A DNA stretch of 64,000 bases from Echinarachnius parma (lineage: Eukaryota; Echinodermata; Echinoidea; Clypeasteroida; Echinarachniidae). A program made the translations under genes and the position numbers. Under the pieces are notes generated by a model. It was given only the letters and a program-made list of their open reading frames with translations. It ran no database searches and had not been told where the DNA came from. The stretch is taken from assembly GCA_037951105.1 (NCBI GenBank), contig JBAMJV010007737.1:1-64000 (forward strand), written 5' to 3'. The number at the start of each line of letters is the position of its first letter. Within the stretch, counting starts at the first letter, position 1. This document shows, piece by piece, positions 221 to 59,451 of the stretch.

Positions 221-1121
221 CCACTGTATCCCTTAGCTACGACACCGTGCTCGCACGCTCGTATTATCATAGTAATCGTTAACTAAATGCACATGACAGT
301 TCGGAACATGTTATTTAACGCGCACTGTGAAATTATTTTCAACCAGCGTCAGATGCCTCCTAACTCCTAATCAACTATCATAGACTTGATTTTACCTTTA
401 TGGGCAGGTCTGGACAAAATAACTGATCAATCTTAGTATGTAAGGCCAAGCTAAAACATGTGACAACTTTGCCAATTAGGGAGTCGTGATTTAGTGGAAC
501 TTATAATGAAATATATGTACTTGCGTGTAATTGGATTGACAGGTGAGTGTTTGAATATCGATTTCCTTTTTCGCTATTATATTGGGCAGATTAGCTGATC
601 AACAGTGCACTTTATGATAAAAGCGCAAAATTTGACACATAATTCTGTAGAATAGACCATTCTAAGCAAATTTGGGTATCGACCCACCGTGGAACTTCCC
701 CGATGGCCATGGCCGCCCTTTTTCAGAATGGCTGCCAGTGTGTACATGATCAGCATTATTTCTCACGAATGGAGGGCTAATTTTCACAAATAAAATAAAG
801 GCAGTGATCTGGGGAAATGTAGAGGCTATGAGGTCAAGGGTCACAAAAACTATATACGCAAAAAGGCAAATTTTTGGAATATCTTGAGAATCATGTGCAA
901 AATTGGCAGCAAACATAGTACATGTATGCACCTTATGTCAAAATATGTCATATCAATATAGTAATGGGTCATGCGGTCAAAGGTCAAAGGTCAGAGGTGA
1001 CCATATTCCAAATTGACCGCCATCTATATTAGGTGATAACAGTAGAACTTCAATGGTTTAAAGCATGTATGTATTCAAATATGGCACATAGGCTACATAT
1101 AACGACGTAATGTATCTGTGT
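221..1121. other. No gene seen; AGGTCA half-site cluster
   Basis: Only short chance reading frames. The sole notable content is the set of nuclear-receptor-type half-sites annotated separately. Confidence 0.5.
974..1000 (+). promoter_or_regulatory. Four AGGTCA-like half-sites at one-base spacing (DR1 array)
   Basis: CGGTCA, AGGTCA, AGGTCA and AGGTGA follow each other with single-base spacers. Another DR1 (AGGTCA-A-GGGTCA) lies at 831-843. Perfect DR1 sites bind RXR/HNF4-type nuclear receptors in animals. No nearby gene start supports a role, and a 7-bp microsatellite explains it equally well. Confidence 0.25.
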
Positions 1122-1275
1122 GGGCAGTGGCGTAGGTCCAGGGGTACAGCGGGCATGCCCCCCCCCCCCCCCCCCAAGACATTTAGAAAGGAACTACAAA
1201 TAGGAAGAATCAAGACAGAGCTTGCATGCCCCCAGAAAGTTGTGTCCCCTCCCCCCCCCCCCCCCCCCACCCCCT
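1122..1275. repeat. Poly-C MITE (gtggcgtag type)
   Basis: Begins with the gcagtggcgtaggtccagg motif common at ends of small invertebrate transposons and holds two C tracts (about 1159-1174 and 1250-1268). A related, inverted end (gggtacgccactg) closes the element near 4027. Confidence 0.45.
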
Positions 1276-2195
1276 ATTCACACATACACACAAATTAATA
1301 GTATGCTCTGTTATTCAGTAGGGTAGTGAAGGGAGTACGGGGCAGTAATTTGAGACAAATTGTAACATACATATCATAATTACATAACTTACATACATTA
1401 AAAAATATATGTACATAAAGTGTGCCATCGACATTGTTCCTGTTCCTTAAATCCTTCCCCCTCCCTGACCCCCTCCAACCAAATTGTCAGTACCTACCCT
1501 TTCATCATACATTGGGAATATTGTTTGCATTACAAAAAAGTGATGCACAATGTAAATACAATATTTATCTGATGTAACTTTTTTGCTCACTTAAAAGAAC
1601 ACTGAAACAATTGTAAACAAAATACTAGTGGTCTGCAAAGGAAAGTGTAACACACTGAAGACCTAACCACAGATTGGATTGGAAGTGAACAGGATCAGAA
1701 TTCTGATAACGAAAGTACAAATTAATGAAATTGAATGACAAAAGTGTTAAAATGAATGGGAAAACCGATATTTCAAATCGGAAATTTTTTGCAATTTCAG
1801 CGTAGCGTATAACAACTAACATTTCAATATTCATAATATTAATTATTTCGTTTCAATCTGACATAGTTAAACTGGTGAACTGTAGGGTGAAGAAACAGAT
1901 AAACACAAACAAGTCATTGATCGTTTTAACATTGTAAAAAAACTTGTCGAATCTCTTTGCGCATTTGTACAGCATTGTAAATGCAAAGTGTCGTTTTTAA
2001 CAAAATATTATTCAAATACTTATTCACCTCTGAGAACAGTCGGGAGCTCGCAAAATATCACAAGAGATAAATCCACTTGTTTAAGTTTGGAGATATGCAG
2101 GTTTATCTTGTCGAAATGTGCCAATGGAAAAATTAAAATTAAAACGTTACATTTTGTATTTAAATTGTGAATTTTGTCAACAAATTCGAAAAACT
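1276..2195. other. No gene seen
   Basis: AT-rich with scattered short reading frames on both strands, none with recognisable domains or flanking splice sites. Confidence 0.5.
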
Positions 2196-2652
2196 GGATA
2201 GGTACGTAGTTTTGTAAAGTATTGAGAGTACAGTTTTGGTAAGACTGAATGTTAGTAACCAAAACCTGCATCATTACAGATTTAAAATCAACGCTCATCG
2301 GTTTCAACCATTTTAGATAAAATATTGTGCATGAGATGATTTGTTGAATAGTGAGTAAATAGAGAGATAATCAACAGCTATTCAAAACCTCTTTTGTATT
2401 TTTTTGAAAAGATAAAGCATTTCTACAAAAAAAACGGCTGGTTCAAAATCATCGAACGATTGTGGGGCCCCACAATTGTTACAAAGTCTTATGTTTACGA
2501 AAATTTCAGCCATTTCTGAACTGATTTTTATCAAATAAAGTGCGTTATGTCTTTAAAATTGTATGCTCTTTCGAATTTGACAGTTTTTCATTAGCTCACA
2601 ACAAATTACTTGTTGTAGCTCCCTCTATACCAAAAGTCAACTATCCCTTTAA
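2196..2652. repeat. TTAA MITE family A, copy 1 (5' worn)
   Basis: Shares the family core: a cggctggttcaaaat block, the palindrome tgtggggccccaca, ttcagccatttctgaac, and the terminal motif accaaaactcaactatccctttaa (here ccaaaagtcaactatcccttta). It ends just 265 bp before the V-set exon start. The left terminus is degenerate. Confidence 0.7.
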
Positions 2653-2917
2653 TATTTTAATGAAAAGTGGATTAAGCGCTTTTCTTCATATGTCGAAAAT
2701 TGATGATGTATGAAGGAAAATATGGACTAAATGACCTTATGATATGCACAAATTACCACAAATATGTAAATGAGTTAATTTATAAAGAATAATAATTGTC
2801 TTTATCGTGATCTATGCACCATACTTCACAGGCATGAAAAGTTATTAAAGATCAATATTGCATAATAACGTTTACTCTTGTATAACAAATTTACCGCTGC
2901 ACGGATATAAGCTCTAT

Positions 2918-3284
2918 ATGCAATTTAAACATTTTCCTTATACAGCGCTTGTCTTAACGGTTATTGTGAGTTGTGAAGAAATCGGACAAGCCATTTCGTT
3001 CTTGAAAGGGGATACTGCTGAGCTACCCTGTCAATATGGGGCCGGACAAGTTACATCAACTCTTTGGTTCCATCAGAGGGAAGCTATCTGGGACTTAGTA
3101 ATACAACAAACTTCTGGAGAATCTAAGGTTTATGGAAATGGATATTCATCTCATCGTGTCGATTTACACGACAATTCGCCAACGCTTATGATCAGGAATC
3201 TATCCCTGTCCGATGACGGTTATTATAAGTGCACTGTGTTTGCCTCAGCACCACTGGATGTGTTTTTGAAGTTACGTGTTATTG
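2918..3284 (+). CDS. V-set Ig exon with signal peptide
   Basis: Open from ATG 2918 to a donor (attg|gtaaga) at 3285, ending in phase 1; 122 residues. The N-terminus has a basic start and a hydrophobic core (ALVLTVIVSC, residues 10-19), a plausible signal peptide. An Ig V-type domain follows: B-strand Cys in ELPCQY, core Trp in TLWFHQ, and the F-strand signature SDDGYYKC. Its phase matches exon 12791, so it could splice directly to the receptor's Ig exons, giving a 678-residue product. No other Ig exon was found between 3285 and 12260. A second possible start is an acceptor at 2944-2945 (exon from 2946, phase 1), which would make this an internal exon. It may instead belong to a separate gene. 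An upstream in-frame ATG at 2858 gives a poorer signal peptide. Confidence 0.7.
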
Positions 3285-3516
3285 GTAAGAATATTTTTGT
3301 TTAACTTAAATTCAGAGTCGAAACCATATCATACATGCAACGTTTCGATTTGATTCATTCTAATTATCACCGTGTTCTTATATCATGCATCTATAACCAA
3401 ATCATACAAATTGTTCCGAGGATCATCAACATAATTATGTCGATGATCCTCATCATGTGTGTTGGGAGGCTTGGTACGAACAGTCACGTCATGTTCACGT
3501 TCACGTCACGTGAAGG

Positions 3517-3616
3517 TTTTGTACCTTTTGTGAAACAGGTCACCCAAATCTACGAAGTGTCACGTTCAGGTTCTGTACCTTTTGTGAAACAGGTCACCCA
3601 AATCTACGAAGTGTTG
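3517..3616 (+). repeat. Tandem duplication in the left MULE arm
   Basis: A unit containing gtaccttttgtgaaacaggt and cacccaaatctacgaagtgt occurs twice, about 56 bp apart. The right arm holds it once, so the duplication arose within the left arm. Confidence 0.8.
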
Positions 3617-3787
3617 GGTTACGTGACACAACAGTTTGTAGATATACTATATGCAATTCATGAAAGCTCACGTAAATTGGCGCTTGCGTAAAACAAATTA
3701 ATGTAAATTGTCGTTGAGAAGAGACTAATTCTCGGTAAATTTAATCGTGAACGAACCCGTCCTACCTATACTGTAATATACAATTAT

Positions 3788-4030
3788 AGGCGTACACAGG
3801 CCTGGGGGCTGGGGGATGGACACCCCCTACCCCCATCCCCTCCCCCTTACATAATTCAAGAAATGTCTTGGTCTCGGCCTCGAAATTTGTGACCGGTCCT
3901 GGTCTCGTCCTCGGCTGCGGTCATTTTCTACGGACACCCCCTACCCATACTCCCCCCGCTTACTTCAATTTGTCTGACGAAATATTCCCCCCCCCCCCCC
4001 TACACCCACCCCTGGGTACGCCACTGCCTA
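3788..4030. repeat. Poly-C MITE nested in the MULE
   Basis: G-rich start (cctgggggctgggggatgg), several C-rich tracts and a gggtacgccactg end resemble the 1122-1275 element in inverted form. Boundaries are approximate. Confidence 0.45.
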
Positions 4031-4863
4031 CAAGTACGGTAGCTAGTTCGAATGTCAAATACATTCATTGATTTATTTAATATTGATTGGTTGGTGTGAT
4101 TGTTTCATTATAATGATTGACTGATTAATTGATTGTTTATTAGATTAAATGACTGACTTATAGATTGACTCGATTCAATAACCATAAATAAACACTATTA
4201 ATCAAATCATTGTTTTATTACTTTTAAACTCATTGATCACTGCTGCCACTGCCAGTCACTCACTCACTCACTCACTCACTTTCACAGGCATGCACATACA
4301 ACGCCGTTTAGGGCCAGTACGGTACGCGCAGACGTCGAGCACGGGAACTTCAGGCGTATGCGAACTGAATTGTCCGATGCGTGTAGCAATTCAGCTGGAA
4401 ATCAACATTTGCCAAAATCCACGCACGACACGTCTTTAGAAATACTCCAATAACAAGACAAATAATGCAAGTGGTATGGTTGTACATTACCTAAATGACA
4501 GAACTGCATATTATCGTCTCAGATTACTCTGAATTATGCACGTACATATTATAAACATAATGATTGAAAAGATTTGATAAGGGGGTATCGGCATTTTCGT
4601 CGACATTTTTAAATCTCTTTGTGCGTGTATGTCTAGTCTTAGTAACAAGCGTTCGCAATTTAAAAAATCTTGATTAAACGCTCACGTCACGATTTGGTTA
4701 ACGCGACACTTCGAGTTTTACCGGCGTGGAAAACGACAAATTGTTGGGTCACTTTACCCTACACTTCGTAGATTTGGGTGACCTGTTTCACAAAAGGTAC
4801 AGAACCGTTCACGTGACGTAAACGTGAACGTGACGTGACTGTTCGTACCAAGCCGTGTTGGGA

Positions 4864-5630
4864 CATGTTAGGTTTTCTATAGCTACGTGTACGTACCAAG
4901 CCAATCATACTTATTTATAGTGGTCAGGGTTGGCCGGGAAATACCAGTGGCGGGAATTCCCACCGGTAAATACCGGGAAATACCGCCCGGGAAATAAGGT
5001 GCCCGTCCGGTAAATATGAGAAAAGTGGGAAATATGATTTATTTCTTTTTATTTTCATTGTTTTTACTTAACTTGTTGTTGTTTTACTGCAACTTCTTAT
5101 TCTTTTTTGTGTACATTGTGTTTAGAAATATTCTTCAGCAGGCTGTTAGTCTATCATAATTGTTTGGACCCAGTTTGTCATTAGACAAATTTAAGGAAAA
5201 AGAATTTAGTCTAATATAATAGACTGTCTAAATGCCACTTTGTCTAACACTTACATCATATATATGACAAGGAACTATAAAATAAACACGCTATAAGTAT
5301 TTCCAATATATATCAAGTATTTACATTATTTGGCATTCACCATATAATAAAAACGTAATTTGAAAATTAACAGAAATAGTAATAATGCTATAATATTTAG
5401 TAACAATAACAAATATAATACATTCTGACTTTATACATACCTGTTAAGGCTGATCTGAAATAATAAGAGTCTAATAAACTAGAAATGCATAATATTGTAA
5501 ATGGCTGATCCCTGAAACGATATTGAAGTTTGTCCATGTTCGGTTCTAATTGTTGGCATGGCCAAAATGTATTACTCATTCCGTCTTGTATTATAAGGAT
5601 TCTCATACAAAAATTATAATACTCATACAC
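4864..5630. other. No gene seen
   Basis: Contains a short run of gggaaataccg-like repeats (about 4935-5035) and AT-rich sequence. No domain-bearing frame. Confidence 0.45.
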
Positions 5631-6711
5631 TACACTCTAAATTACAGGGATTTAAAATCTAAATCGTAGCTTGGATTGAAACAAATATAAATACACTTAG
5701 ATTATTTGTAAATCTATGGAGACTTAAAAAGTCGCGCGAAAGCAATTGTTAATCGAAGGCCAAGGTGTGATTTTCAATCCATCAAAGGATTGGAAAATAA
5801 CGCCAGGTTATCGGAGATTTGACGAATGAGAACAGAGATATTTCACACGTGACCTACTGCGGTATTCTGAAGCTCAGTTTTCGCACCCGTGGTCAACATG
5901 GCGGTTTTGTCGGAAGAAGTCCGTAAAATGTGCTTTTCTCCTGTGTGGAACAGTATTATTTGCCTGTGTGGCCATTCATTATTGTCAGAATATTAGTTTG
6001 TAAGACATGTGTGGTTGTTGTTAGGAGCCTGTGTGGCTGTAGGTTAGGCTTTAGGGAAGGAGATGACAGTTTGCGATACGGGTTCGGTTGCCGCGCGAGC
6101 GCTTCGCGTTGAGAGAGCATCACGACGCCGTGAGCTGAGCGGGCTGACGAGGCAGTGAGAGGCTATAACTAAGGTGGATTTAAAAAGTTTTAATCCTAAT
6201 AAGATTAAAATAACCCTTGTTTCAATCCCGCGAAGAGTGAAAAATAAGCTATAAGGATTTATAAAAAAAAATCCAAAAGGGCTTCATTTTTAATCTATCT
6301 GGATTTATATTTTTTTAATCCAACAAAAGATTTATTTTAAATCATGATCGGCTGGTCCCTAACCACAGCCGAAGAAAGATTTAAAAGTAAATCTAATAGA
6401 TTTAATTTCAGTTCAACTGGATTTATTATATTTTAAATCCTTTATGGATTAAAAAAGTTTTAATCCCAATAAGATTGAAATAACCCTTGTTTCAATCCCT
6501 CAAAGAGTGAACAATAAGCTAAAAGGCCCTAAAAGGATTTATAAAACAAATCCAAAAGGGCTTCATTTTTAATCTATCTGGATTTATATTTGTAAAATCC
6601 AACAAAAGATTTATTTTAAATCATGATCGGCTGGTCCCTAACCACAGCCGAAGAAAGATTTAAAAGTAAATCTAATAGATTTAATTTTAAATCCTTGTAA
6701 TTTAGAGTGTA
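5631..6711. mobile_element. TIR DNA transposon (tacactctaaattac ends), non-autonomous
   Basis: Inverted ends tacactctaaattaca-ggattt at 5631 and, reversed, at 6711. The interior has a GC-richer 5' part with an ATG in good context at 5898 (MAVLSEEVRKM..., 32 codons) that looks like a captured gene start, and a 3' part made of two tandem units. No transposase. Confidence 0.65.
6178..6690 (+). repeat. Two tandem copies of a ~267-bp unit
   Basis: Starts such as agttttaatcctaataagat (about 6188) and agttttaatcccaataagat (about 6455) recur, as does catgatcggctggtccctaa. It lies inside the TIR element at 5631-6711. Confidence 0.8.
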
Positions 6712-7089
6712 AATGTGTTAAATACTGCATGCATGGGAATGCATGTTAATTTTCTTAATTAACCGGTGGTTTGTTATTTCAATAGGGTAGATTTGTGAAA
6801 TGATATATAACTGTGTGATACAAGGAACAACTTTGACACAAAGTATTGATTGGGTTACATTCTGCAAAAAGTAGGTGGGGAAACGTGAAAGCTGCTTTTG
6901 GCAAAAAAATGTCTGGCTTGTTACCATATAATTACCATATAATTTATTTTTGTAGGTTTTTTTTGTTTGTTTTTGTTTTTGATAGATTTGTGTAAGCTTG
7001 TTCCATAATGATAACTTTTTTCTTGCAAACGTATTGTACATGATAAGGAATAGCATTATGTTTCGTACACTGAGTTTTGTAAACGTTAT
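6712..7089. other. No gene seen
   Basis: AT- and T-rich spacer between the TIR element and the LINE. Confidence 0.4.
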
Positions 7090-7322
7090 ACATGATGAGT
7101 AATAATAAATACAAAACTGGTCATCAAATATGTAGTTTTTGTTCTGAAAATGTTCCCCCTAGATTAATAAATACAACTTTTACAACTACACCGGGAAGAC
7201 ACGGATCGCGTCGATTTAATTATGTAAAGGCTTTACCATTCAAAATTGCATAGGAGAAATTTTACCATTTAATCACTTTATTTAATGATCAAATTTCTTC
7301 ATTTTTTCAACTTGAAGATTCT

Positions 7323-7610
7323 ATGAATCCATTAGAAATTAAAAATACAATTATTAACCTTCAAAATATTATTCCGTTAGATAATATTGAAGATGGTACA
7401 CCACAGAGTACTTATTATTCGGTTAAGGACTTTAATGAGACATTTGTAAATGATGATTGCTTTTCACTAGTTCACCTTAATAGTAGAAGTATACCCCAAA
7501 ACTTTGATGATCTTGAAATATTTTGTAATGATTTGAAACATAAATTTAAATTAATAGCCATAACAGAGACTTGGTTAAATGATACTTCATTGACTATTTA
7601 TATCAGTTAG
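7323..7610 (+). pseudogene. LINE endonuclease fragment
   Basis: 95 codons with HLNSRSIPQNFDDLE and ITETWLND, the first conserved blocks of APE-type LINE endonucleases. The catalytic remainder is lost to stops and a deletion before 8077. Confidence 0.7.
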
Positions 7611-8076
7611 AATATTATGAATTTATAACAAATCACAAGACAGGAAAGAGGGGTGGGGGAAACAGGTTTGTATATTCATAAATCAATTAAATATAAAGTA
7701 AGAGATGACTTGATGCAACCCACCTCATTTGAACACCTTTTTTTTAATAGAAATACAGGATAAACATAAACATAAATTAATTGGTGTTTAAAGTCTGCTA
7801 AATCTTTATATTATTTTGATACGTTTAATAAAGTTAGAGGTAATATGAAAGTATTGTGGAAACTTAATAATTTATTAAAAAGAAAGGTTAAATGTACAAA
7901 AATTGAATCACTCCATGTAAATAATGACGTGGTAATGGATAATATTCAAATGGCTAATGCATTAAATGACCCACAACCACATGAACAGTTTAAATACTTA
8001 TTTGAATAACTCTAACGCATCTTCTATTTATTTTAAACCAATAACATGAACAAAGATAATTGAAATTGTAAGGAAC

Positions 8077-9553
8077 ATGAAAAGTAATACAAGTCCTGGG
8101 TTTGACTCAATTGATATTCAAGTAATTAAAAAAGTGATAGTAATACTAGCCTCTCCATTATGTAAAATATGTAAATATAGTTTAGAACAAGGTATATTTC
8201 CAAATCAGATGAAAACAGCCCGAATTACTCCAATTCAGAAGAAGGGCCCAAAAGATAGCATGAATAATTATCGACCGATTGCAATACTTCCTATTTTTAG
8301 TAAAATACTTGAAAAATGTATGTACAGTAGATTAATGTCATTTTTTAATGTCAATATGGTTTTAGGCAAGGACACTCCACATCCACTGCAATATTACAAT
8401 TAGTGCAAAATATAAATGAATCAATTAATAAAAAAAAAAGATAAATTACTGTCCGTGTGTATTATCTAAAGCATTTGATATAATTAATCACAATATTCTT
8501 ATTTCCAAACTGTCACATTATGGTATAAGAGGGCTTTCCTTGCAATGGTTCCAGAGTTACTTAGATGCTCGTCAGCAATTTTCACTCTTAAATGGAAATA
8601 ATTCAGAACACAAACCAGTTGAATGTGGAGTGCCCCAAGGATCAATATTAGGACCTCTTTTGTTTTTGATTTATGTAAATGACATACAATATTGTTCTAA
8701 TTTACTTAGATATATATTTGTTGCTGATGATACGTGTATTTATTTATCTGGAAATAATATTGATTCTTTAATATCCACTATGAATATACAGCTACAACTT
8801 ATAGACAATTGGATGCAAGCCAATGACCTAATATTAAACGTTGAGAAAACAAAATTTATGATATTTGGTAATTATAGCAATAATACTTTTAATAATTTAC
8901 AATTACTTTATAGAAATAGTCCTATACAACATGTTAATGAGTTTACATTTTTAGATGTCATAATGGATGAAAAGTTAACATGGAATAGCCATATCTCACA
9001 ATTATGTAGTAAATTAGCGCAGAATATTGGTATACTCAATAAATTACGTGTTTTGTCACAGGATGTTCTTAAAGTAATATGTCATTCATTCATTACATCG
9101 CATATAAGTTATTGTTGTATTATTTGGGGTTTTACCTCACAATTGAATTTAAAGCGAATATATATTTTACAAAAAAGATCAATTCGAATTGTTACACATT
9201 CTCAATATTTATGTCCAACCAAACCATTATTTGTAAAAACAAAGATCCTTTCTATTTATGATATTATTCTATCATACACAGGAAATTGTATGTACTCTTG
9301 CTATCATAGTGAACTACCCCAATCTTTTAGAAATTACTTTAATTTGAATATGATGGTACCTAGTTATGACACTAGAAATAAAAAAAATAATTTCCATCCT
9401 CCATTGATGCGTACTGAAGGAACAAAATCAACCCTATTTTATGAAGGTCCAGTTCTATGGAATAAATTACCCGATAATATAAAAGCCTGTAAATCTCTTA
9501 ATCATTTTAAAAGCTCATACAAACAAGTACTATTGAATAATTTGACAACATAA
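8077..9553 (+). pseudogene. LINE reverse transcriptase, frameshifted
   Basis: First piece 8077-8403: NTSPGFDSI, ITPIQKKGPKDSMNNYRPIA. A broken segment (8403-8540) holds the FDIINHNIL motif (RT block A). The second piece, 8540-9553, has GVPQGSILGPLLFLIYVND, an altered catalytic block FVADDT (usual YADD/FADD), and the C-terminal block ending YEGPVLWNKLPDNIK. At least two frame breaks make it non-functional. Confidence 0.88.
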
Positions 9554-9825
9554 TGCGTTCAAATGTAACACAAACTATCGTTCATTAGTTTGTCCTCTCT
9601 TTTCTTATGCCATATTTTTTTTTTTTTTTGGGGGGGGGTTTGGTTTTTTTCCTCTGTAATTTGAAATTTGTATGTATATTTTGCTTTCAACCTTTGTAAA
9701 TCATGGAGCCTTTCTTGACAAGCCTGTGGCTTCTATTGGCTCCACCACACAATTAATTTGTATGTATACTATTTGATTTGTATTTGCATGTGTTTTTTTA
9801 TGGGGCAATAAATTCAACTCAATTA

Positions 9826-11380
9826 GGTATTCTGGCAATACCCTGACATAATTGGTGACTATGCGTGATTTTCGTGTCAAGTCATATACGGTTGACTCCA
9901 TATAATTAATGTTGGAACATTCTGAACAAAATACACTGACAATAAATTCAAATGACAACAATTATAATATAGGTTTTCGCGATTGTGACAATCAAATTGA
10001 TATAAGGAGCAAACGAATTAGCGCAATTTGCTATCGCCGTGTAAAAGCAGCATTCGAATTCGTAAATAGTCGTTCGAAATCGCGTCTGAGCAAGTTAATT
10101 TGAACAAAGAGCATACCTTTTCATCAATGGTCATTCAAAATCGCACGTAGTTCACGCTGGCGCTACTGCACATTCGCGAATTCGAGTGCCCATTAATGAA
10201 TTATCGTGTCTATTCACGAAACCGTATGCGTATGCATGAATTCGTTTGCACTTTTTCGGAATTTGAAAGACCGATACCAACGATTGCGCGGCAATGCGTG
10301 AATTTGAATGACCTTTAATGAATTCGATTGAAAAAAGTGTAAAATTGAGCGGGAAAACCTATATCAGTTGTCAAACCGTTATGGTAACGTTTAAATCACG
10401 TAGCCCTTGTATCATTATACATAGCGCAAAAAAGATACAGGACACTTGTTAAAGTTGAAATATTTCATACTGATATGCGAATAAATAAACAATACCATAA
10501 CAAATTAAAGGGAATGTATACGCTACCAACGAGGTTAGACATTTAGATATATTCATTCATGCATGACTTTGGCAAAGTCAATTGACACAAGCAATGTATT
10601 TTTTGTTTCAAATATAGTAATCTTTCGAATTAAATGTTAGGTAACATTGGACTAAAAAACAGTGTGTTACATATCGTTACAACGTGATTTGTCACACACG
10701 GACGTGACGTTACATATGCCGCGCGTATGTGAATATTGTAATGATGTTGTCATGATAATGTAATGTAAATGCTATGACGAATGACAAGAGGCTATGATTT
10801 TAATATAAATAACGGCTTTGGAATTTGTAAAAATTGTAAAAGCAAAGAAAGCAAACAAACAAAAATACATTTATGACATTTAAAAAAGAATAACATAAGA
10901 TAATGAATGTTTAATATGTTTTTGGTTTGGATCTCCCCAAATAACATCTGAATGTAAATTGTCAATTACCTAACCCATGCGAATATTTACCTTTGTTGTA
11001 TAACTTTAAAACATTCACAGAACTACAATTACAAAATACAAGATGCAAAGTGAAGTTAAATGATCAACAACATTGGTGCAGCAATTGATATTTCGTTTGA
11101 TGAATCGTTTGTTTTTATTCAAGACTTCCACACCAGGTCCACTGTCGTATTTATACGACAGTAGCATGCATTGAAACCAACTGCACATTGCAATACACAC
11201 TAGTCTAGCTCACATCATTATGAAGGTATATCATTACATACAAATTAAAATTGTATCATACATATTATCAACTCAATAGCTACACAAAAGGCACACATGT
11301 GTCATAAATTTTGCTAAATCATGTATGTATCCTGGCAGATAAGATAATGAAAGCATTCGTTTATCAAACATAAAACTTAA
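9826..11380. other. No gene seen; GAATTCG-rich stretch
   Basis: From about 9970 to 10330 the sequence repeatedly shows gaattcg/cattcgaattcg-like words and is richer in CpG than its surroundings, suggesting an old repeat. The remainder is AT-rich without domains. Confidence 0.4.
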
Positions 11381-11823
11381 AGGAACTACAGCGTCTAGAT
11401 GGCCTAATTTTTACAATCGCCTCTCTATAAGTAATTTTTCCTCAAGAAAAAGAATTTGGCAGTGATTTCCCATGAAATCAATCAATTTGTGGGTAATTAG
11501 TAAATATCTAAATGTCCTGGAAACGCCCCTTTTAAATCGCAAAAATCTGACGTCATCTAAACAACTTCGCCCCGTACACGACGCCTATCTAAATTATGTA
11601 GATGACGTAAGCCGATGAATTGTCAATCACATGTCAATCACGCTGCTGATTTTGTAACCTGGGCGGGGCGTAAACTGGCTGCTAAGTGAGATTTTGCATC
11701 AGAAAATTAGCCTAAAATCACTATTGTGTTTATTTTCAGGGAGTTTTTTTTTTTCGGCAGAACTAGTTTACAAGTCATCAACTATAGAATAAGTACCAAA
11801 GTACGTTGTATTCCTTAGTTCCT
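11381..11823. repeat. TTAA MITE, family B
   Basis: Ends aggaactacagc and, inverted, ttccttagttcct, bounded by TTAA at 11377-11380 and 11824-11827. The interior is GC-richer with two tgacgt-like words. TTAA duplication is typical of piggyBac and Kolobok elements. Confidence 0.65.
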
Positions 11824-12259
11824 TTAAAAAAGATTTGTATTGGCAGCAAAGTGAGGCATCTATGTCACGAATATTGCATGCTGGGATAGATTCCACTGAC
11901 GGCATATTCGATCAAGAACTGTTACCTTATTTAGTCCAAAAGTGATTGTTAATGATCCAGTTGGTCTTTTTTCGTCGGGACAAGGGCAATATGTTGACAA
12001 AATATTGTTTCTTTGATTGGTAAATGCTGAAAATCGTCCGAACCCCTCCTTTAATAAAAACAAAATGTACAATGTTGTACATTAAAGTGGTCCCTGTAAA
12101 GTGTCAGATATTGCACAAAATGACATTTGAGACTTCAATCCTATATCAATATCATTGTAAAATACAATTGAAAGATTTGTGAAAGTTTGAAAGAAAACGA
12201 ACACAGTTTACCTAGTGAAAAAAACGAATATTGAGTTCATATTTTATCACCGAATACTG

Positions 12260-12335
12260 ATGGCCTGCCGTAGATTTGTCGCAGTAATAATCATCCGTTT
12301 GATCTTGATGATATCCGCACCCGTGTATACAGACG
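12260..12335 (+). CDS. Receptor exon 1: signal peptide
   Basis: ATG 12260 opens a 25-codon leader: basic MACRR, a hydrophobic core rich in Val, Ile and Leu, then a polar APVYTD end, typical of a secretory signal. The donor is gacg|gtacgg at 12336, phase 1, and joins exon 12791 to give a Val at the junction. An in-frame ATG exists at 12215, but the shorter start gives the better signal peptide. The reading frame runs on into the intron to 12517, which I take as fortuitous. Confidence 0.7.
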
Positions 12336-15300
12336 GTACGGATTCATGGAATTTTTGCGCGCTCGGCTCAACAGTCGAGTCGGGAAGGTTTACCAAGCGC
12401 GCTGGCCGGACGTGTTCAGCTACGGCAATTGTACTTTTCATCAAAAGCGTTAGCAACGCTTTTGAAATAATGATTTTCAATGATAAATATCTTCATATTA
12501 GGGGGACATTTGAATAAATCTAACCCTATTTTATTCTTCTCTTACCATAAGCTAAACAACACGGCAGAAGAGAAACGAGGAAGCTCCAAGTATTTGTCGT
12601 GGAGTTAGACACTTTACCTGTATCACTTTAATAGTTTATGAACATATTGATGATGTTGTAAATTTCATTTCATAGCTTCCAACAAATTTTACTAGTTTCT
12701 GAACCTTTTTTAAGGGTTTTAGATCAACGATACAAATTGGTTCAAGGATAAATTATTCTGATTTTAACTGACCGCATTTTCTCTTTGAAGTTTCTCCGGT
12801 CCAGCCAAATCCTGTCATCAAACAATGCAGTTATGCGGGTCTCATGGCAAACTGTGAGATGTCCGTGTCGGCAGGAAATCCTGATTACCTGTCGTGCGAG
12901 ATGCGTGGTTTCTACCCTGCAGATGAAGCTGTAATGGAGTGGCGACAAAAGGGCGAAGCTTCTGCCTTAGCGACAACGTCAACTCCCACGAGAAATGATG
13001 ACAACACGTATTCTTTGCAGTCTTCTGTTAATGTCAGCGTGTTGGTACCTGAACGCTTCTGGTGCAACGTCTCATACCTATCAGAGCATGGAACTCAACA
13101 TAGTGGATCTTCAATTTATTTGAACGCAGGTAATATAACTGAGTAGCAAATGCAGATGGAGTATGGGTTGGCCTTGTATATAGTTATTGGAATCTCCACA
13201 ACAGCATGAATAGCACGAATAGCACGAATAGCACAAATGACCGAGGTGGAATAAATATAACACTCACGTTGATATCAGGGTGTCTACAATTTGATTTTCA
13301 ATCATCAATTTTGATTGGCAAATTATCCTCATTTGGAATAACGTTTTGCATGATATACCTTAATACAGAAAGTTTACCAAAGATTGCTTGTAACTCATTT
13401 GTCTAATTATCTAAATGTATATATCAGAACAATGGCTGAATTGTAAGAGGTTTCGTCAGTTCGATCTCAACCATCGTTCGTGTGTGATTTTGCGCAGCAA
13501 TTCAAACTAGAAATATGCATAGGTGTGTTTAAGTACAAAATATTTCATTTATTTCTAGACTGCAGGTTGATATCAAGGCGAGGGATAATTTTTTGGAGTA
13601 GGTTTTATGTAGCATATTCTGAAATAGAAAAATCATTGCCAATGGGTAAGTTTACCATTGAACATTTTATCTAACTTGCGTACTTTTTTTAATCAATATA
13701 CAGGGCTTGGCATCGAACTCTACTTCGATTAATATCAAAACATGTAGCTTTCTATGTTAGCTAGTGTACCGTTGACATTTTATACCGCTTATCTTAATAA
13801 TCACCCTTTATCATTTTAGTTCCAACTGAAGACATTTCTCCAACTATCGTGCAGTGCGAGCAGTCTTTTGAATCAAGGAAATGCATTCATCATACAAAAA
13901 AGAACTTTGCCCAAAATCTCACATGTGAAATTCGCAGTTCGTACGTTCCGAAATACGCGTTTTTAGACTGGAGAGCTGAAGACGGTCGGATTCTTCCTTC
14001 AGTGTCGACTCGTGTTTCTAAGAACAAAGACGCAACATCCACATTAAGTATAACAGTCTCCGCCGTCACATCTGAAACTGAAACATTTTGGTGCAACTTG
14101 TCGTACGATCGCAGAGTGGGATTGAATGGATCTGGAACAACAATTCAGTTAATTTCAGGTACAACAATCCAGTTAATTTCAGGTACATGAATACGATTTA
14201 TTAATAACTTCATAATTATTTGGCAGCAATTTACTCTTACTGGGACATTTATACATAATAAGTAGAATAACAATTTGTATTCTTCTATATTTACTATATC
14301 ACAGTGACCAATATTATATGTATTCGTTATAATTTTTTTTTTTTTTTTTTTTTTTGGGGGGGAGACATAATGTGTAAATATTATTATTCAACACAGTTTG
14401 AATGTATATTATATGGGTTCCACAAAACGTAGCCATAATCGCTGTGATATTCCTAATGTACAAACGAATGGAATCATATCAGGTCATATTAGAAGAAGCC
14501 CTTGAAATAAGGCAAATATTAAATTATTTCTTTTTATGTTCAGTGCTCAGTGAAATCTCACTTATTCGTATAATTTTGACCTCGAGCGCATTTTAAAATT
14601 TGCAAGGGAGATACATTGATATAAGTATAATCAATACTATTGTTATTATTATAAGTAGTAGTAGAAGTAGAAGTACTATTAGTATTGCTATTAGTATTGT
14701 TATTTTGTTATTTATTGAAATATGTGTTGGGAAAGAATCAAAGGTGCAATTGTGTTTTTCGTTTTATAAGTAGGTACAGTTTTTTTAGACTTTGTTCTGG
14801 TTTATGTTTTACTTAGGATCCAAACAAATATTGTGATTTATCGTTTTGATTACTTCCACAGTAACATCGTCAAGAAGAACACGACTCATCGTATCAATTA
14901 TGGTAATCGCTTTAGTACTCTTCTCTGCAATAGCAATTGGTGTCAGATGTTTCATTCTTCATACCGGAGATACAACAAATGGTAAATTGAACTCATTTGT
15001 ATCAACTTCCCTCCTTTCGTAATTTAGCCCTAAAGATTCCAGGGGATATAATGCATCAACATTTGCAAAAATTCGACCTACCGTTACAAACGCACGTGAC
15101 CTTTTCTCATGTGTGTTATTTGTGTACAAAACATTGGGAAATATGTTCATATTAAAACAAAATAGAACATTGGATATAAAGATGTTTTTAATGTACATTT
15201 TTGTTTTGGGTAAAAAATAGTTAATCCAACGGTTAGACTTACTAACACACAACCCCAGCAATGAAATACATTAATTTAAAAATAAGAATAAGATATTATC

Positions 15301-18300
15301 AAAACAATAAAAAAAAAAATAGGAATAAGCCGGCTCCATTCCAATGTTTGGTTTTTATTTACGAATATATCTGATGAGAAACAGTATTCATGATACAAAA
15401 TGAAGGATCCCATGAGCCCGAATATTATTTATACGACCTTATTTGTTTAACTGACCAAAAATATATAAATGAAGCGATAACCAAAAAATACCCATTGCTT
15501 GCCATTATTGTTCTATGGTTCAGACATCAGTAAGAATTAGTCAGAAATGTTTCATTGGAAAGTGTTTATGAACGTAATGCACAAGATGCACAGCGATATA
15601 TGCAACTTAGTTTACTAAATATATGGACGTTTATTTTGTTTTACTATGCCCCATTCGATGTCTTTTGATTTAATTAGATTTCAATGAATAAATGTAAAGA
15701 TAAATAATGGGAAAGAGAAGTTAAATATGTTAGGTGTTCATTGACTTCAATATATCCACATAAGTTGACATCAGTACATCTGCCTTTTTTTTTTTATTTA
15801 TCTTGGTGTTATTTTAGATGTGCAAGGAATCTATCGCCAGAAGTGTAAGATTTGGGGATATTTAGGAGACAGGTCTACGCAAATAGGTTTAGTTGGAGCT
15901 GCATCCGTTGGAAAATCGTCATTAATCAACACAGTATCGACTGTGCTTGGTGTGAATTATCAGCGTTCATGGAGAGCAAACACGAGTACGATTCGAATGT
16001 TTTTCGGATTACCGGCGGATTACCACGAGTTGTTTGTCGAAACGGCCCCTACTGCACCAATTCATCATCAAGGAGGATACTCAAGGTGGCGAGATCCCGT
16101 ACAAATTACTCAAAATGTCACTATCCGGGACAATCGAGGATGGGATGACTGGACAAATGAAAATGCCAGGAAAGAACTTGAAGCACAGATAAGTAAGACA
16201 CTATATTTCAGAAATATGGCGTTCACGTTTTCAGTTGGTCTGAATTCATTTTGAACTATGTTGTATAACTATTTAAATATCTAATCTGTGTGGTAGAAGA
16301 TGTTTGTTTTACTCTGAACAAATTCTAGAACGATTTATCTTCCACACTTTGCATCCGATTAAAATGCTTTAAATAACAACGTACGGAGTGTAAATTCGTA
16401 TGGAAATCATTGCGTGTGTATATAAATATTAAAGGGATAGTTGAGTTTTGGTATAGAGAGCGCTACACAAAATAATTGTTTGTGAGGTAATTAAAAACTA
16501 AGTGTCAAATTCGAAAGAGCATAACATTTTATTGACAGAAAAAACTTGATTTTATCTTAATCGATTCAGAAATGGCTGACATATCCATAAACATAACCAT
16601 TTGTAATAATTGTGGGGCCCCACAATTATTCGACAATTTTGAATCAGCCGTTAAAAATGTTTTTAAAATGCTTCCTCTTTTAAAAAAATTACAAATAGGT
16701 TTTTAAATAGTTGTTGATTATCACTCTATCTAATCACTATTCAACAAAACACAACATGCACAATTTTATATTTAAAATGGTTGTCATCGATGAGTGTTTA
16801 GAGAGCGCGAATTTTAACGGCTCTTTTTACATGATAACAGGCTTTATAAGTTATAAGTAAGTTCTAATTCATTTCGAGCATGGTGGGGTTTATATCTATC
16901 AGTTTGTAATTTAATTGTGCAGGTTTGGGTTACTATAATTCAGTTTGACCAAAACTGTACTCTCTTTACCAGAACTCAACTATTCCTATAAATAATGACA
17001 TTTGGTCTTGTAAATAAGCCTTTCCATCTGGATTTACCCTACATTTAACGATTAAAGGGGCTTAGTAACTTTGTTGACACGAGTAATTTAATGACGAAGG
17101 GTTGGTACATGTGAATATGAATATAATCCATGCCAAACTTATTATTAAGAAATAAAAGTGCAGAGAATTTGTTTTAACATCCAGCATATAAACATAATTA
17201 TATAACTAGCTTCTCGATTGCAAAGCCAACCTTGTAATGTAATGTTTGCTATATCATGCTCCAGATGGCACTGCATCAGGTTGCGAAGATGTTAGCTGGA
17301 GACATAACGAAGAGACAGCAAACGATACAACGGAAATTGAACTAGCCCCTCTTAATCCACCGGAACTGAGCCCCAAATTGACAAATGCAATCCTCGTCTT
17401 GAAGTAAGTTAAATTCAAAGGCAATACAAGAACAGGCAAATGAAGAGTTTAAGGGGCCCGGTGGGGTATTTACTAAATCAGGTATATTTTTCTAATCATT
17501 GAAACTACCCCCTACAAACCATACATTTCTGGAACGCTTAGAATATGGTATGGGGAATCCAACAAAACGAAATAAAAGACAATTGGACTTATAATAACAG
17601 TTAAAACAGCAATAATATAGAGAAAATTTTAATTTTTGATTTTTAGCAAGTCAACATTCCAAACGTATCTACTCATATAGGGGAGTTTACATTCTACAGT
17701 TAAAATATAGATATTATAATGCTATACAAACAAATTAATGATGGCTTTTTACATTTTACCACACAGATGGTTTCTCCTCAGACTAACATTCCAATGAGAT
17801 TGTTTAACAAGTTACCAGTAATATTATGTCCTCCGACTGAAAGGACAGTATAATACTAGGGGCATGTTAAACCATATCATTGGAATGTCAAACATCCCAT
17901 TGTCTGGATGCCTAATGACAAGAAACAATCAGAAATGGTGCATGGCAATCAACAATGTGCTTGTTAAAATACACTTGTTAAACTGGTCAAGCTGGTAACT
18001 GGGAAGTGTTGTCTGTTTTAGTCTAGCCTAAGTTCATTAATTTAGTAGAATACCGGCCATCTGTTTAATATTTACACTGACACTAAATTAGATTAACATA
18101 CATAATTAATATCATGATTCTGAAATCGCAACATAGACATAATGGGAAAATTACCCTTAGGTTGTATATACTTTTAATACTTGTTGTCATGGCATTGAGG
18201 CAGTGTGCACGTACACAATTTATTGCTACATTATTTTGTTCTACTCTTTACTGCATGTACTGTGTCTGTCTTACAGAGGGAATACGTGTTTGGACACAAT

Positions 18301-19022
18301 GGATGATGATAGCGCAAAGCAGCTGCGAGATACCATAAATCGTGGATTAGGTACGTAAAATAATGTATCTAAATTCATCTAATGTACGTGGGCAGTAGAT
18401 GAGGGGGAGAGAGAGAGAGAAAGATAGTGGGGGGTAGGAGACGTATCAATATTAAATTGTGTGAGTTTTTGTTTTTAATACACGGATTCAGATTTTAACT
18501 TGTGGCGACCATGAAGACACTGATATTTTATGTTTGATTCATTAAACTCGCACTTTAATGATAACATCTGTGCATCAGGGTTGTTTTATATAATCATTTA
18601 AAATGCAATACCTGTGACTAATCATGTCATGATTTCAAAATTGCTCTTGCAGCTTGAATTAACTCGAGACGTCTTTATTTAAGCTTGTAGATTTGATAGA
18701 AAATACACTAACGACCTCTATATTTTCATTCTGAATAGGTCGTGATCCGATTATAGTAGTTACCCATTCGGACTGGATAAGCGAGACTGAGGCCGGTCAT
18801 ATTGAACAACGTCTGCGGCAAATCTTCATCATTGAAGACAATCGACTCTTCTTCATTGAGAATGCAAGGAAGAAAAAGCCCAGAGTCGAACTGTCAAGCC
18901 GGCTTGCGGTTCTTCGATTGATAAATCAGTGTATCAGAGAAAGTGAAACATTTAATAAACGTCTTGTAATAAGAGAAAGTGAAAGAGAGATATTGGACAA
19001 TCACCATGTCCTCACTCAATAA
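12260..19022 (+). CDS. Ig-Ig-TM-GTPase single-pass receptor (eight-exon model)
   Basis: Joined exons: 12260-12335, 12791-13129, 13820-14158, 14862-14981, 15818-16192, 17265-17403, 18277-18350, 18739-19022. They sum to 1746 nt, 581 residues plus TAA, with compatible phases (1,1,1,1,1,2,1) and GT-AG at each intron. Domain order: signal peptide (1-25), Ig domain 1 (26-138), Ig domain 2 (139-251), transmembrane helix (about 260-279), cytoplasmic P-loop GTPase (about 312-581). GTPase motifs seen: G1 GAASVGKSS (about 318-326), G3 DNRG (396-399), G4-position THSD (496-499) and a late FFIEN (525-529). The G1 surroundings and FFIEN are what I associate with IFI44/IFI44L-like proteins, which are interferon-induced in vertebrates. 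Inference: a cell-surface recognition molecule with an internal GTPase effector. A GIMAP or other septin/dynamin-like assignment is possible. The downstream AATAAA at 19065 fits the end of the gene. The exon structure is strongly supported by phase; the function is inferred. Confidence 0.82.
12441..12465. repeat. Short perfect hairpin in receptor intron 1
   Basis: tcaaaagcgt, a 5-nt loop, then acgcttttga. Possibly chance; the role is unknown. Confidence 0.35.
12791..13129 (+). CDS. Receptor exon 2: C1-like Ig domain 1
   Basis: A 339-nt exon, phase 1 on both sides; acceptor ctttgaag at 12783-12790, donor cgcag|gtaata at 13130. It encodes one Ig domain with B-strand Cys in YLSCEMRGFYPADEAV, core Trp in MEW and F-strand Cys in FWCNVSY. 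The C-x3-GFYP-x-D-x-AV-x-x-W spacing is the hallmark of C1-set domains (antibody constant regions, MHC). A second Cys pair (KQC and ANC) lies N-terminal and is also present in the next exon. N-glycosylation sequons occur (NVS). Confidence 0.85.
13206..13238 (+). repeat. Short tandem repeat (aatagcacg)
   Basis: Three to four copies of a 9-bp unit in receptor intron 2. Confidence 0.7.
13559..13645 (+). other. Possible 87-nt cassette exon or Ig remnant
   Basis: Between Ig exons 2 and 3, an acceptor (atttctag) and a donor (atgg|gtaag) bound an open 87-nt stretch that is phase 1 on both sides, so it could be included without a frameshift. It encodes 29 residues with no Ig Cys pair. An FWSRFYVAYSE stretch faintly recalls the FWCNVSY strand of the neighbouring Ig domains, so it may be the decayed end of a third Ig exon. 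It may also be chance. Confidence 0.25.
13820..14158 (+). CDS. Receptor exon 3: C1-like Ig domain 2
   Basis: Exactly 339 nt again, phase 1 to phase 1; acceptor tcattttag at 13811-13819. The domain has the same four-Cys pattern as exon 2 (VQC, RKC, LTC, FWC), core Trp in LDWRAE and FWCNLSY at the F strand, so the two exons are diverged tandem duplicates. The C1 GFYP motif is replaced by SSYVPKYA. Two in-frame donors end the exon, at 14159 and 14183, 24 nt apart; the longer form adds eight residues. Sequons include NLT and NLS. Confidence 0.85.
14862..14981 (+). CDS. Receptor exon 4: transmembrane segment
   Basis: A 120-nt exon, phase 1 on both sides; acceptor ttccacag at 14854-14861, donor aatg|gtaaat at 14982. 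A short basic stretch (SSRRTR) precedes about 20 hydrophobic residues (LIVSIMVIALV...), then RCFIL and a polar tail. This is a single membrane span. The predicted topology puts the Ig domains outside and the GTPase inside, although the basic residues on the N-terminal side do not follow the positive-inside rule. Confidence 0.78.
15818..16192 (+). CDS. Receptor exon 5: GTPase G1 and G3 motifs
   Basis: A 375-nt exon, phase 1 to phase 1; acceptor ttattttag at 15809-15817, donor ataa|gtaaga at 16193. It carries the P-loop GAASVGKSS followed by LINTVSTVL, and the G3-type motif in TIRDNRGWDDW. The region between holds a Tyr/Trp/His-rich segment. The - strand paralog at 63855-64000 matches closely from HHQGGY to the exon end, which supports this frame and exon boundary. 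Confidence 0.9.
16433..16990. repeat. TTAA MITE family A, copy 2 (receptor intron 5)
   Basis: Starts TTAA-agggatagttgagttttgg and ends ccagaactcaactattcct. Central tgtggggccccaca palindrome. Near full length (about 560 bp), within the intron after exon 5. Confidence 0.85.
17265..17403 (+). CDS. Receptor exon 6: GTPase linker
   Basis: A 139-nt exon, phase 1 in and phase 2 out; acceptor atgctccag at 17256-17264, donor tgaa|gtaagt at 17404. It begins GTASGCEDVSW, passes through an acidic, Thr-rich stretch and ends PPELSPKLTNAILVLK, probably a core beta strand. The paralogous exon at 63317-63473 starts GTASG and ends LSPKLTNVILVLK with the same phases. The middle is poorly conserved and six codons longer there. 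Confidence 0.85.
17785..17889. repeat. Inverted repeat in receptor intron 6
   Basis: acattccaatgagattgttt and tgttaaaccatatcattgga are near-reverse complements around a 55-bp loop, the core of a small hairpin element. Confidence 0.45.
18277..18350 (+). CDS. Receptor exon 7: GTPase
   Basis: A 74-nt exon, phase 2 in and phase 1 out; acceptor tcttacag at 18269-18276, donor ttag|gtacgt at 18351. It encodes KGNTCLDTMDDDSAKQLRDT followed by INRGLG. The paralogous exon at 62520-62587 (KGNVGLDSMSGAEHLRDT, then ILGALG) is 6 nt shorter and keeps the phases. Confidence 0.85.
18739..19022 (+). CDS. Receptor exon 8: GTPase C-terminus and stop
   Basis: The last exon, entered in phase 1 after acceptor ctgaatag (18731-18738), runs 94 codons to TAA 19020-19022. 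It starts RDPIIVVTHSDW, where THSD occupies the G4 position (usually [NT]KxD), continues through FFIENARKKKP, and ends in a charged helical tail. The paralogous last exon at 59162-59451 keeps IIVVTHAD, FFIEN and QCIRE. A candidate poly(A) signal AATAAA lies at 19065-19070. Confidence 0.9.
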
Positions 19023-21800: not shown

Positions 21801-22604
21801 TACATGGATGGTTTATCAAACTGCAGTTTTGCCAGCTATTCCTATACCACCCCGAATGCGAAGTAGATGAAATGTTAGTACATTATAACAGTATAATGTC
21901 GATACGATGATCAGTGTAAACTACTGTCACTATTTAGCGCTACCCATCACTTTGTTTACAGTAAGGTTATGTGTTGCTGCAGTGGATTTATTAAGATCGA
22001 GGGGGCACATGCAGCTCCCCAGTGACACATACAAAATAAACAAATGGTGGAATAAAGAACAAACGTAAGGCAAAGCGCCCCGCTGAGCCATATTGGATCA
22101 TTGTTGTATGAACGGTTCTCCACATCGCTCCATTGGTAGTAAATGTTTTTTCACTCATAGGTAATTCAGGTATATATATTATTTAGTCAAATGTTATGAG
22201 GTATTAAATCGATATTTTGCACGACGGAGGACCACCTCTGATAAATGATCACGTAAATTCAACTAAATGTATTAAATTTGGACTCAATACAATAATATAC
22301 CGATTTCAACAACATAAAAACCAACAATGGAACAAGAGAACTCAGATAAATTTACAGTGCAAATATTCTACAATACAATTAAATAATTAGTTATAAGCCA
22401 AGAACAGCACAATCGCGTTGATAGTTCAAATAAAAATTATTGATAATTACGGGCTTAGATCCCACGGTAGGCTACGTACTATCATTCCCTATTGTCAAGG
22501 AGACGATCAGTTTACGGTGCCTAACCAAATTATTTAGGATGATGATCATAATAATGACAATAATAATGATTATAAATACTGATACTAATAGCAAGAATAA
22601 GTAC

Positions 22605-22996
22605 AAGAAGAAGAAGAGAAGAAGAAGAAGAAGAAGAAGAAGAAGAAGAAGAAGAAGAAGAAGAAGAAGAAGAAGAAGAAGAAGAAGAAGAAGAAGAAGA
22701 AGAAGAAGAAGAAGAAGAAGAAGAAGAAGAAGAAGAAGAAGAAGAGGAGGAGGAGGAGGAGGAGGAGGAGGAGGAGGAGGAGGAGGAGGAGGAGAGAAGA
22801 AGAAGAAGAAGAAGAAGAAGAAGAAGAAGAAGAAGAGAAGAAGAAGAAGAAGAAGAAGAAGAAGAAGAAGAAGAAGAAGAAGAAGAAGAAGAAGAAGAAG
22901 AAGAAGAAGAAGAAGAAGAAGAAGAAGAAGAAGAAGAAGAAGAAGAAGAAGAAGAAGAAGAAGAAGAAGAAGAAGAAGAAGAAGAAGAAGAAGAAG
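22605..22996 (+). repeat. Long (GAA)n tract with (GGA)n core
   Basis: About 390 bp of pure purine on one strand: GAA repeats, then about 17 GGA units (roughly 22743-22795), then GAA again. The 188-codon frame through it is only poly-Arg/Gly/Lys. Such tracts can form triplex DNA, and the GGA core can form G-quadruplexes. Confidence 0.97.
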
Positions 22997-23128
22997 ATAT
23001 AATTGAATTAAGTTGTATGAAAAGAAAACAATTTTAGGCATTATTAATTAGATTTCCATATATTTGTATAGTTAAATTGTTTTTGAATCACTATCATCGA
23101 TACTGTGATGAAATGTTAATACCAGACT

Positions 23129-44900: not shown

Positions 44901-45646
44901 TTTAATTTCCAATAGGATCCCTAAAACTTAGATGAATACATTAACTTATCGTAAAATTGAAATTGAATGGCTGAATGATCTGGAGCCGTAGAAGGTATTA
45001 TATCACACTTTAATACTACATGTTTACTAAACTGCTAAACTGTTTCTTCAATCCATTCCTTCCCCTTCAAATATCCAGCAACTCAAATCTATCTAAAAAT
45101 TGTTGAAATCAAATATTAAATCGAGACTGAACATTGTGTTTACTACTTCCAAAATAATCTAAATCTTTATTTTAAATAATATTAAAATATCCCCCAATAA
45201 TTATTGCATTATTTTCTTTATTAATTTCTTTTACTATTTTTTCAAAATTGACCAAAAAATCATTTTGTTTCTGATTCCCTTCCTCTTACTGGCAAATAAA
45301 TATTAGCCATTATCAATTTCATCCCCTGAATAATACATTCCATTATAACATATATACCATTATTATCTGAAATAACATTTAATATCTGAATATCTAATGT
45401 ATTATCTATTAAAATAAGCACCCCTTTACTATGGTTTGTCCCATGACTAAAATATGAACTCCCATTCTATGGCAATTTCCAAGTCTCCTCAACTTCAATT
45501 GTACTATATGTTTCTTGTAAAAAAACAATATCTACACCTTTATCTTTACACCACGTACACATGTTTTCCCTCTTTGACTTTTCTCGAATTCCTTTAACAT
45601 TCAAAGAAAGAAGATTACATTTAATACAAATATCTTTACCTTCCAT
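41972..45646 (-). pseudogene. LINE ORF2: AP endonuclease, reverse transcriptase, C-terminal Cys-His motif
   Basis: Endonuclease start (LLSLNVKGIREKSKREN and QETYS, about 45620-45500). RT blocks: NKSPGNDGLSVEFY, IKNYRPISLLNVDYNILTK, VGYLKGRNIGEA, FEKAFDSVSH, GVRQGDP (43655-44332) and the catalytic YADD in ILYADDMTLF (43473-43682). The distal RT (42753-43391) and a terminal CSLCGKYEETYEHLFCLC cluster (41972-42814) follow. Frame breaks occur between the pieces and the endonuclease contains stops, so it is inactive. Confidence 0.88.
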
Positions 45647-59161: not shown

Positions 59162-59451
59162 CTAAAATTGCGTTACGCTTTCTTTGTGTTTTTTCATAAT
59201 CTTTCTCTCGCTTTTCTGAATCTCTAGACGTGTGTATTCTGTTTCCCTCTCTCTGATGCACTGTTCCATGAGCTGGAGTACGGTGTCTCGGGTATCCGGT
59301 TCAATCTTGGGTTTCTCCTTCCTTACATTTTCAATAAAGAAAATCCGTTTATCTTCAACATTGAATGTGAGCTGCAGGCGTTGTTTGATGCGATCGAAGT
59401 CAAGCTCTTGTAGTAAGTCAGCGTGGGTAACTACGATAATCGGGAGACGTC
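59162..59451 (-). CDS. Paralog last GTPase exon
   Basis: 290 nt ending in TAG, entered in phase 1 after acceptor cacatgaag. Begins RLPIIVVTHADLLQ and includes KRIFFIENVRKEKP, then a charged coiled tail. The match to receptor exon 8 extends over nearly its whole length. Confidence 0.87.

Follow-up and report, generated by a model that had tools for sequence, protein, structure and literature searches.

The window analysed here, i.e. the whole stretch of 64,000 nucleotides (C7725:1-64000), contains a gene predicted from the genomic sequence at positions 506 to 19022 of the plus strand, with nine exons and 681 codons, and part of a second copy that extends from 59162 to beyond 64000 on the minus strand. 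The location of their exons is shown in Table 1. The predicted product of the first gene comprises, in this order, a signal peptide, a V-set domain, a C1-set domain, a third Ig domain, a membrane span (TM) and a P-loop GTPase. The second copy is of a different type (B, the window gene being of type A) and the rest of it (TM, Ig, C1, V and leader exons) continues along the contig, to 77067.

Table 1. Exons of the two gene copies and associated repeat, in window positions
Feature	Position	Strand	Remarks
Leader exon (predicted)	506-542	+	ATG, 12 codons and one base, donor GTGAGT, phase 1; MKYMYLRVIGLT
V-set exon	2946-3284	+	339 bases, phase 1-1, acceptor AG/CGCT, donor GTAAGAAT
C1-set Ig exon	12791-13129	+	339 bases, phase 1-1, Pfam C1-set
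Third Ig exon, C1-like	13820-14158	+	339 bases, phase 1-1
Membrane-span (TM) exon	14862-14981	+	strongest hydrophobic window of the protein
GTPase exon 1	15818-16192	+	G1 GAASVGKSS, G3 DNRG
GTPase exon 2	17265-17403	+	splice sites and phase recur in other loci
GTPase exon 3	18277-18350	+	splice sites and phase recur in other loci
GTPase exon 4	18739-19022	+	G4-like VVTHSD and stop codon
Dispersed repeat, ca. 550 bases, holding 12260-12335	12077-12631 (about)		not counted in the gene model
Second copy (type B), last exon	59162-59451	-	frame joined in phase
Second copy, GTPase exon 3	62520-62587	-
Second copy, GTPase exon 2	63317-63473	-
Second copy, GTPase exon 1	63855-64000	-	cut by the window end; runs to 64151 on the contig

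Several other elements were detected in the window. Two open frames, one located on the plus strand within the V-C1 intron (7254-9553) and the other on the minus strand (41972-44920), are ones which we take to be reverse-transcriptase-like and to belong to LINE elements. A dispersed repeat family, with ca. 150-180 bases matched, occurs in both orientations at 2433, 16493, 28252, 37143, 46763, 53789, 56918 and 63044, one of the copies being inside the GTPase intron 16192-17265. A long inverted repeat (60574-61469), with arms of 88-168 bases, lies in the second copy's last intron and looks like a foldback element. Finally, a long polypurine microsatellite at 22472-23047 leaves several frames open through composition only, and an Rfam scan of the window detected one tRNA.

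The exon structure was compared across eight loci, namely the window gene and those found in 199 kb examined around seven GTPase-exon places, and splice sites were checked in these loci. An earlier, sequence-only reading had joined eight exons into one frame of 582 codons: its GT/AG sites and phase were borne out, and its C1, Ig, TM and four GTPase exons recur elsewhere with their splice sites and phase. It had counted two Ig domains where three are now predicted, the V-set exon having been overlooked. A V exon was found upstream of C1 in seven of the eight loci (window gene, C1654, C2213, C5340, C2551, C7749 and the minus copy) and none was found for C10443; its AG/CGCT acceptor and its GTAAGAAT donor are present in all six assembled A-type loci. 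ATG.../GTGAGT leaders having the same donor and phase precede the V exon in C1654, C2213, C2551, C7749 and the minus copy of C7725, this last one with a weak DNA similarity (E 0.096), and the leader search, which covered the loci other than C10443, detected none in C5340. For the third Ig exon, an alternative donor at 14182 would lengthen the exon by 8 codons.

From the V exon to the stop codon, the frame is open in the six assembled A-type loci (669, 669, 669, 669, 677 and 679 codons without leader). The minus copy is also an open frame, of 657 codons including the leader, and four other joined proteins have 683-693. Each joined protein with a leader opens with a hydrophobic, signal-like stretch, and each predicted chain has one strong hydrophobic span with the P-loop domain C-terminal of it; in the window protein, the hydrophobic maximum (2.89) falls on residues 361-379, in the TM exon. 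Since a single strong hydrophobic span follows the signal-like N-terminus, a type I topology is predicted.

Searches of the 1.2 Gb assembly (14790 contigs) scored the best candidates, so that the counts are lower bounds: at least 23 matches for the first GTPase exon, at least 37 for the C1 exon, about 20 of which are C1 copies, and at least 24 for the last exon. Of these, 21, 20 and 23 were used, respectively, after dropping the second pieces of C443 and C12323 for the first query, one half of C7186 together with 16 weaker matches, mostly third-domain exons, for the second, and the second piece of C10443 for the third. Among the matches listed, 17 of the 21 first-GTPase-exon places are flanked, on the same strand and at no more than 25 kb, by a C1 exon upstream and by a last exon downstream, and none of the 21 has a C1 exon in the wrong order or on the wrong strand. 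Places that are not co-linear correspond to the plus copy of C3540, with a weak third-domain-type match at 9731 and no C1 match, to C443, where the first GTPase exon lies at the contig edge, and to distant relatives in C3752 and C7518. No match to the first GTPase exon accompanies the C1 exons of C4039 and C8067, which occur alone, the C1 exon with a stop and the last exon of C7186, or the two last exons of C7380. Two co-linear places have an in-frame TGA, located within the GTPase exon 1 match for the plus copy of C2213 (C2213:13652-13969, plus strand) and in the last exon for C10443 (10458-10712, minus strand), a weak match lying 22.6 kb off; some family members thus look broken. Overall, the family has about 17-20 loci of this architecture in the assembly, and the near-identical ones may include alleles. 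One COX1 gene was also detected in the assembly. Its 447 codons include 12 TGA, 3 AGA and 17 ATA. AGA in frame is at odds with the vertebrate code; it occupies places of serine, and ATA those of conserved isoleucine. The protein resembles echinoderm COX1, and the source is taken to be an echinoderm, or at least an ambulacrarian.

On all five contigs holding both types (the window contig C7725, C2213, C1654, C2551 and C3540), A-type and B-type copies occur as convergent, tail-to-tail pairs that are 38-56 kb apart, with one further B copy located farther away in C1654. This arrangement suggests the duplication of a two-gene block.

Selective constraint was estimated within the A-type loci only, i.e. 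leaving out the minus copy and C10443. Over all codons, dN/dS between the window gene and the five other A-type loci was 0.33, 0.45, 0.36, 0.32 and 0.36, and comparison with C2551 gave similar values for the Ig part (0.28) and for the GTPase part (0.30). By exon, values against the two most diverged A-type loci range from 0.15 to 0.58, except for the TM exon (0.84 and 0.47). This exon is weakly constrained, with dN/dS of 0.47-1.88 where defined, although near copies give noisy ratios and the value of 1.88 comes from a short exon. A single predicted chain that joins an Ig ectodomain, through a membrane span, to a P-loop domain in the cytoplasm, as had been proposed from the window alone, is repeated across the family with dN/dS well below 1. 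Given the 17 of 21 co-linear places, the lack of any C1 exon in the wrong order and the dN/dS of 0.32-0.45, these predicted genes form a duplicated family and not a chance neighbourhood. In the comparison with the distant A copy C2551, dS is 0.12 for the V exon and 0.80 for the last exon, so that V exons may have been gene-converted or exchanged between copies.

In the ectodomain, the V-set exon scores 42.1 bits with Pfam V-set (cut-off 26) and the C1 exon 32.3 bits with C1-set (cut-off 21; 32.6 bits in the 582-codon protein), with all eight exons of alignment A3 matching C1-set at an E-value of 0.01 or less. The third Ig exon alone reaches 20.7 bits with Pfam ig against a cut-off of 21.8; in the whole ectodomain, Pfam finds two C1-set stretches. 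The cysteines and tryptophan of the third Ig exon are kept in the six full proteins, as are the six Ig cysteines. When compared with the PDB, the C1 profile retrieved SIRP-alpha as the only chain under 1e-7, and a single-sequence search with the two-domain part ranked the IgA1 heavy chain first. Putative membrane receptors with IgV-IgC1 ectodomains have been reported in the sea urchin (PMC3308324), and the C1-set matches described here are in line with that report; another review holds IgC1 to be confined to jawed vertebrates (PMC7916673).

In the tail, the G1 motif GxASVGKSS, the G3 motif DNRGW and the G4-like VVTH(S/A)D are kept in all six full proteins; the first two fit the P-loop GTPase patterns GxxxxGKS and DxxG, whereas G4 reads THxD instead of N/TKxD. 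No GTPase family was above its cut-off in the Pfam scan of the tail, MMR_HSR1 scoring 18.3 bits (cut-off 21.9) and AIG1 15.1 bits over the second half (E 0.015). With AIG1 at 15.1 bits in the window gene and 11.2 bits in the C7749 tail against a cut-off of 27, membership of the GIMAP/AIG1 family was rejected. The IFI44-like label given at first is not established: a profile of the six tails aligned with a human IFI44 sequence over 24 columns around the P-loop and nothing further, so that kinship with IFI44 is a lead, and the predicted membrane span argues against a soluble protein, solubility and induction by interferon being features of the IFI44 family.

More distant relatives were sought in structure and protein collections. 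A single GTPase sequence gave four chance-level PDB matches, none significant (best E 0.57), and the GTPase profile gave 18, mostly located at the P-loop, the best being YsxC (E 0.0029), with no significant relative. In a large protein set, seemingly poor in eukaryotes, nothing was found at E 10 or better (8000 and 712 candidates scored); a further GTPase search of this set returned 23 weak matches, which centre on the P-loop and reach E 0.004 at best, the four with a source name being YihA/YsxC or "GTP-binding protein". An AlphaFold model built from GTPase exon 1 by itself had a pLDDT of 41 and was discarded. Since no ITAM or ITIM pattern occurs in any of the six tails, the GTPase is their sole recognisable signalling part.

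Relatives of these GTPase exons that lack a C1 match also occur in the genome. In two of them, L028 1276-1704 (from C3752) and L053 3-734 (from C11980), the P-loop is shortly preceded by a Met codon in frame, with putative starts MATATQ... and MSNLTDE..., respectively, and their contigs show no C1 match among the matches listed. With the L028 exon as query, at least 33 matches had E-values of 0.001 or lower; among those listed, 15 are on contigs that do not figure in the C1 list, or 14 if the contig-edge copy C443 is left aside.

Taken together, the nine-exon gene probably encodes a type I receptor with V-set, C1-set and C1-like Ig domains outside the cell and a divergent P-loop GTPase of ca. 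290 residues inside, which would work by clustering. Binding of a ligand to the V domain would cluster receptors on an immune cell and thereby concentrate the GTPase domains at the membrane, where these would bind GTP and assemble, the assembly acting as a switch or as a membrane effector. Nucleotide-dependent assembly of the tail is proposed here by analogy with GTPase families in general, and the GTP-dependent effector role proposed in the sequence-only reading is putative. Immune Ig receptors usually rely on separate adaptors or kinases; if the proposal is true, the GTPase would here be part of the receptor chain itself, and recognition would be coupled directly to a GTP switch or to a membrane effector. 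Most likely, the exons of a free cytoplasmic GTPase would have come to sit downstream of an Ig-TM gene, to which they would have been joined at a phase 1 intron. Since relatives of the GTPase exons that lack a C1 match persist in the genome, the family would offer a test case for a receptor gaining an effector by exon joining.

More tentatively, an echinoderm lineage may have expanded V-C1-C1 receptors with their own GTPase effector, signalling through a self-assembly that GTP drives at the membrane, with no ITAM, TIR or kinase domains involved. Within that extended proposal, it is conceivable, with the same reserve, that these V-C1-C1 receptors belong to the kind from which antigen receptors are presumed to derive. 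The sequence-only reading had taken the whole layout as one not known to be described: this does not apply to the ectodomain, V-C1 membrane receptors having already been described in the sea urchin (PMC3308324). As to the tail, no description of an Ig receptor ending in a GTPase was found in the literature searched, the scope of which excluded most subscription journals.

The ligand may be of another nature. A receptor for self/non-self or cell adhesion, rather than for pathogens, would agree with a multicopy family and with a V-C1-C1 layout resembling that of SIRP, the only PDB chain under 1e-7 for the C1 profile, although IgA1 ranked first in the two-domain search; we consider such a function rather unlikely. 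Another possibility concerns the tail, which could serve as a non-enzymatic bait or scaffold, either as a guarded mimic of the free GTPases or by assembling partners without hydrolysis. The related GTPase exons lacking a C1 match in the same genome would provide the proteins to be mimicked, and a scaffold role has to be taken seriously as an alternative because the restriction of RSV by IFI44 and IFI44L is reported to be independent of their predicted GTP-binding region (PMC7459546). The conservation of the P-loop, DNRG and THxD in six of six proteins nevertheless suggests that nucleotide binding matters; we regard a non-enzymatic tail as improbable.

Two further alternatives relate to the gene model. 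A shorter form, with exon 1 at 12260 and two Ig domains, is very improbable as the true transcript or as an alternative one. The segment 12260-12335, taken at first for the signal-peptide exon, is in phase, open and followed by a GT donor in the window, and its peptide recurs in C5340 and, followed by a GT donor, in C7749. It lies, however, in a dispersed repeat (see Table 1) that behaves differently from one locus to another: when window positions 11900-12790 are compared with C2213 and C1654, the match begins only at ca. 12625 and the repeat is unmatched; in C7749 the repeat is found between Ig2 and TM; in C2551 pieces of it are located 10-15 kb upstream of the V exon; and in C5340 it has the same position as in the window but no GT donor. 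Being repeat-borne and, in other loci, misplaced or devoid of a donor, this segment is very probably no exon, and the leader at 506-542 replaces it. Finally, it is scarcely credible that the Ig and GTPase regions belong to two distinct, adjacent genes, even though an extra 5' exon between TM and GTPase could escape a view based on genomic sequence, since the absence of any Met codon between the membrane span and the P-loop in six of six full proteins means that translation of an independent P-loop protein cannot begin within those exons by themselves, 17 of the 21 places are co-linear, and the TM-GTPase junction, although at different places in types A and B, is in phase with its splice sites kept in both.

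The receptor with a GTPase tail favoured here can be compared with several known systems. The SIRP family has a V-C1-C1-TM layout, and thus the same order and type of ectodomain; SIRP-alpha signals through ITIMs, a pattern that none of the six tails displays. With IFI44 and IFI44L, the P-loop can be aligned, and IFI44 has TH.D in the place of G4 where the tails have THxD. IFI44 was originally described as cytoplasmic (PMC7459546), whereas the GTPase predicted here would be tethered to a receptor. GIMAP/AIG1 proteins are P-loop GTPases linked to immunity, which the tail matches weakly through AIG1; lancelet GIMAPs are reported with CARD and HINT partners, not Ig (PMC12373286). The sea urchin IgV-IgC1 molecules, compared by description only, are likewise putative membrane receptors of an echinoderm with a V-set followed by a C1-set, and a GTPase tail is not mentioned in that review's account of them (PMC3308324). 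Finally, the Aplysia TLRs with ROC-COR also combine a recognition ectodomain with a GTPase module, but as LRR/TIR receptors with a Roco GTPase they do so with domains other than those found here (PMC9334734).
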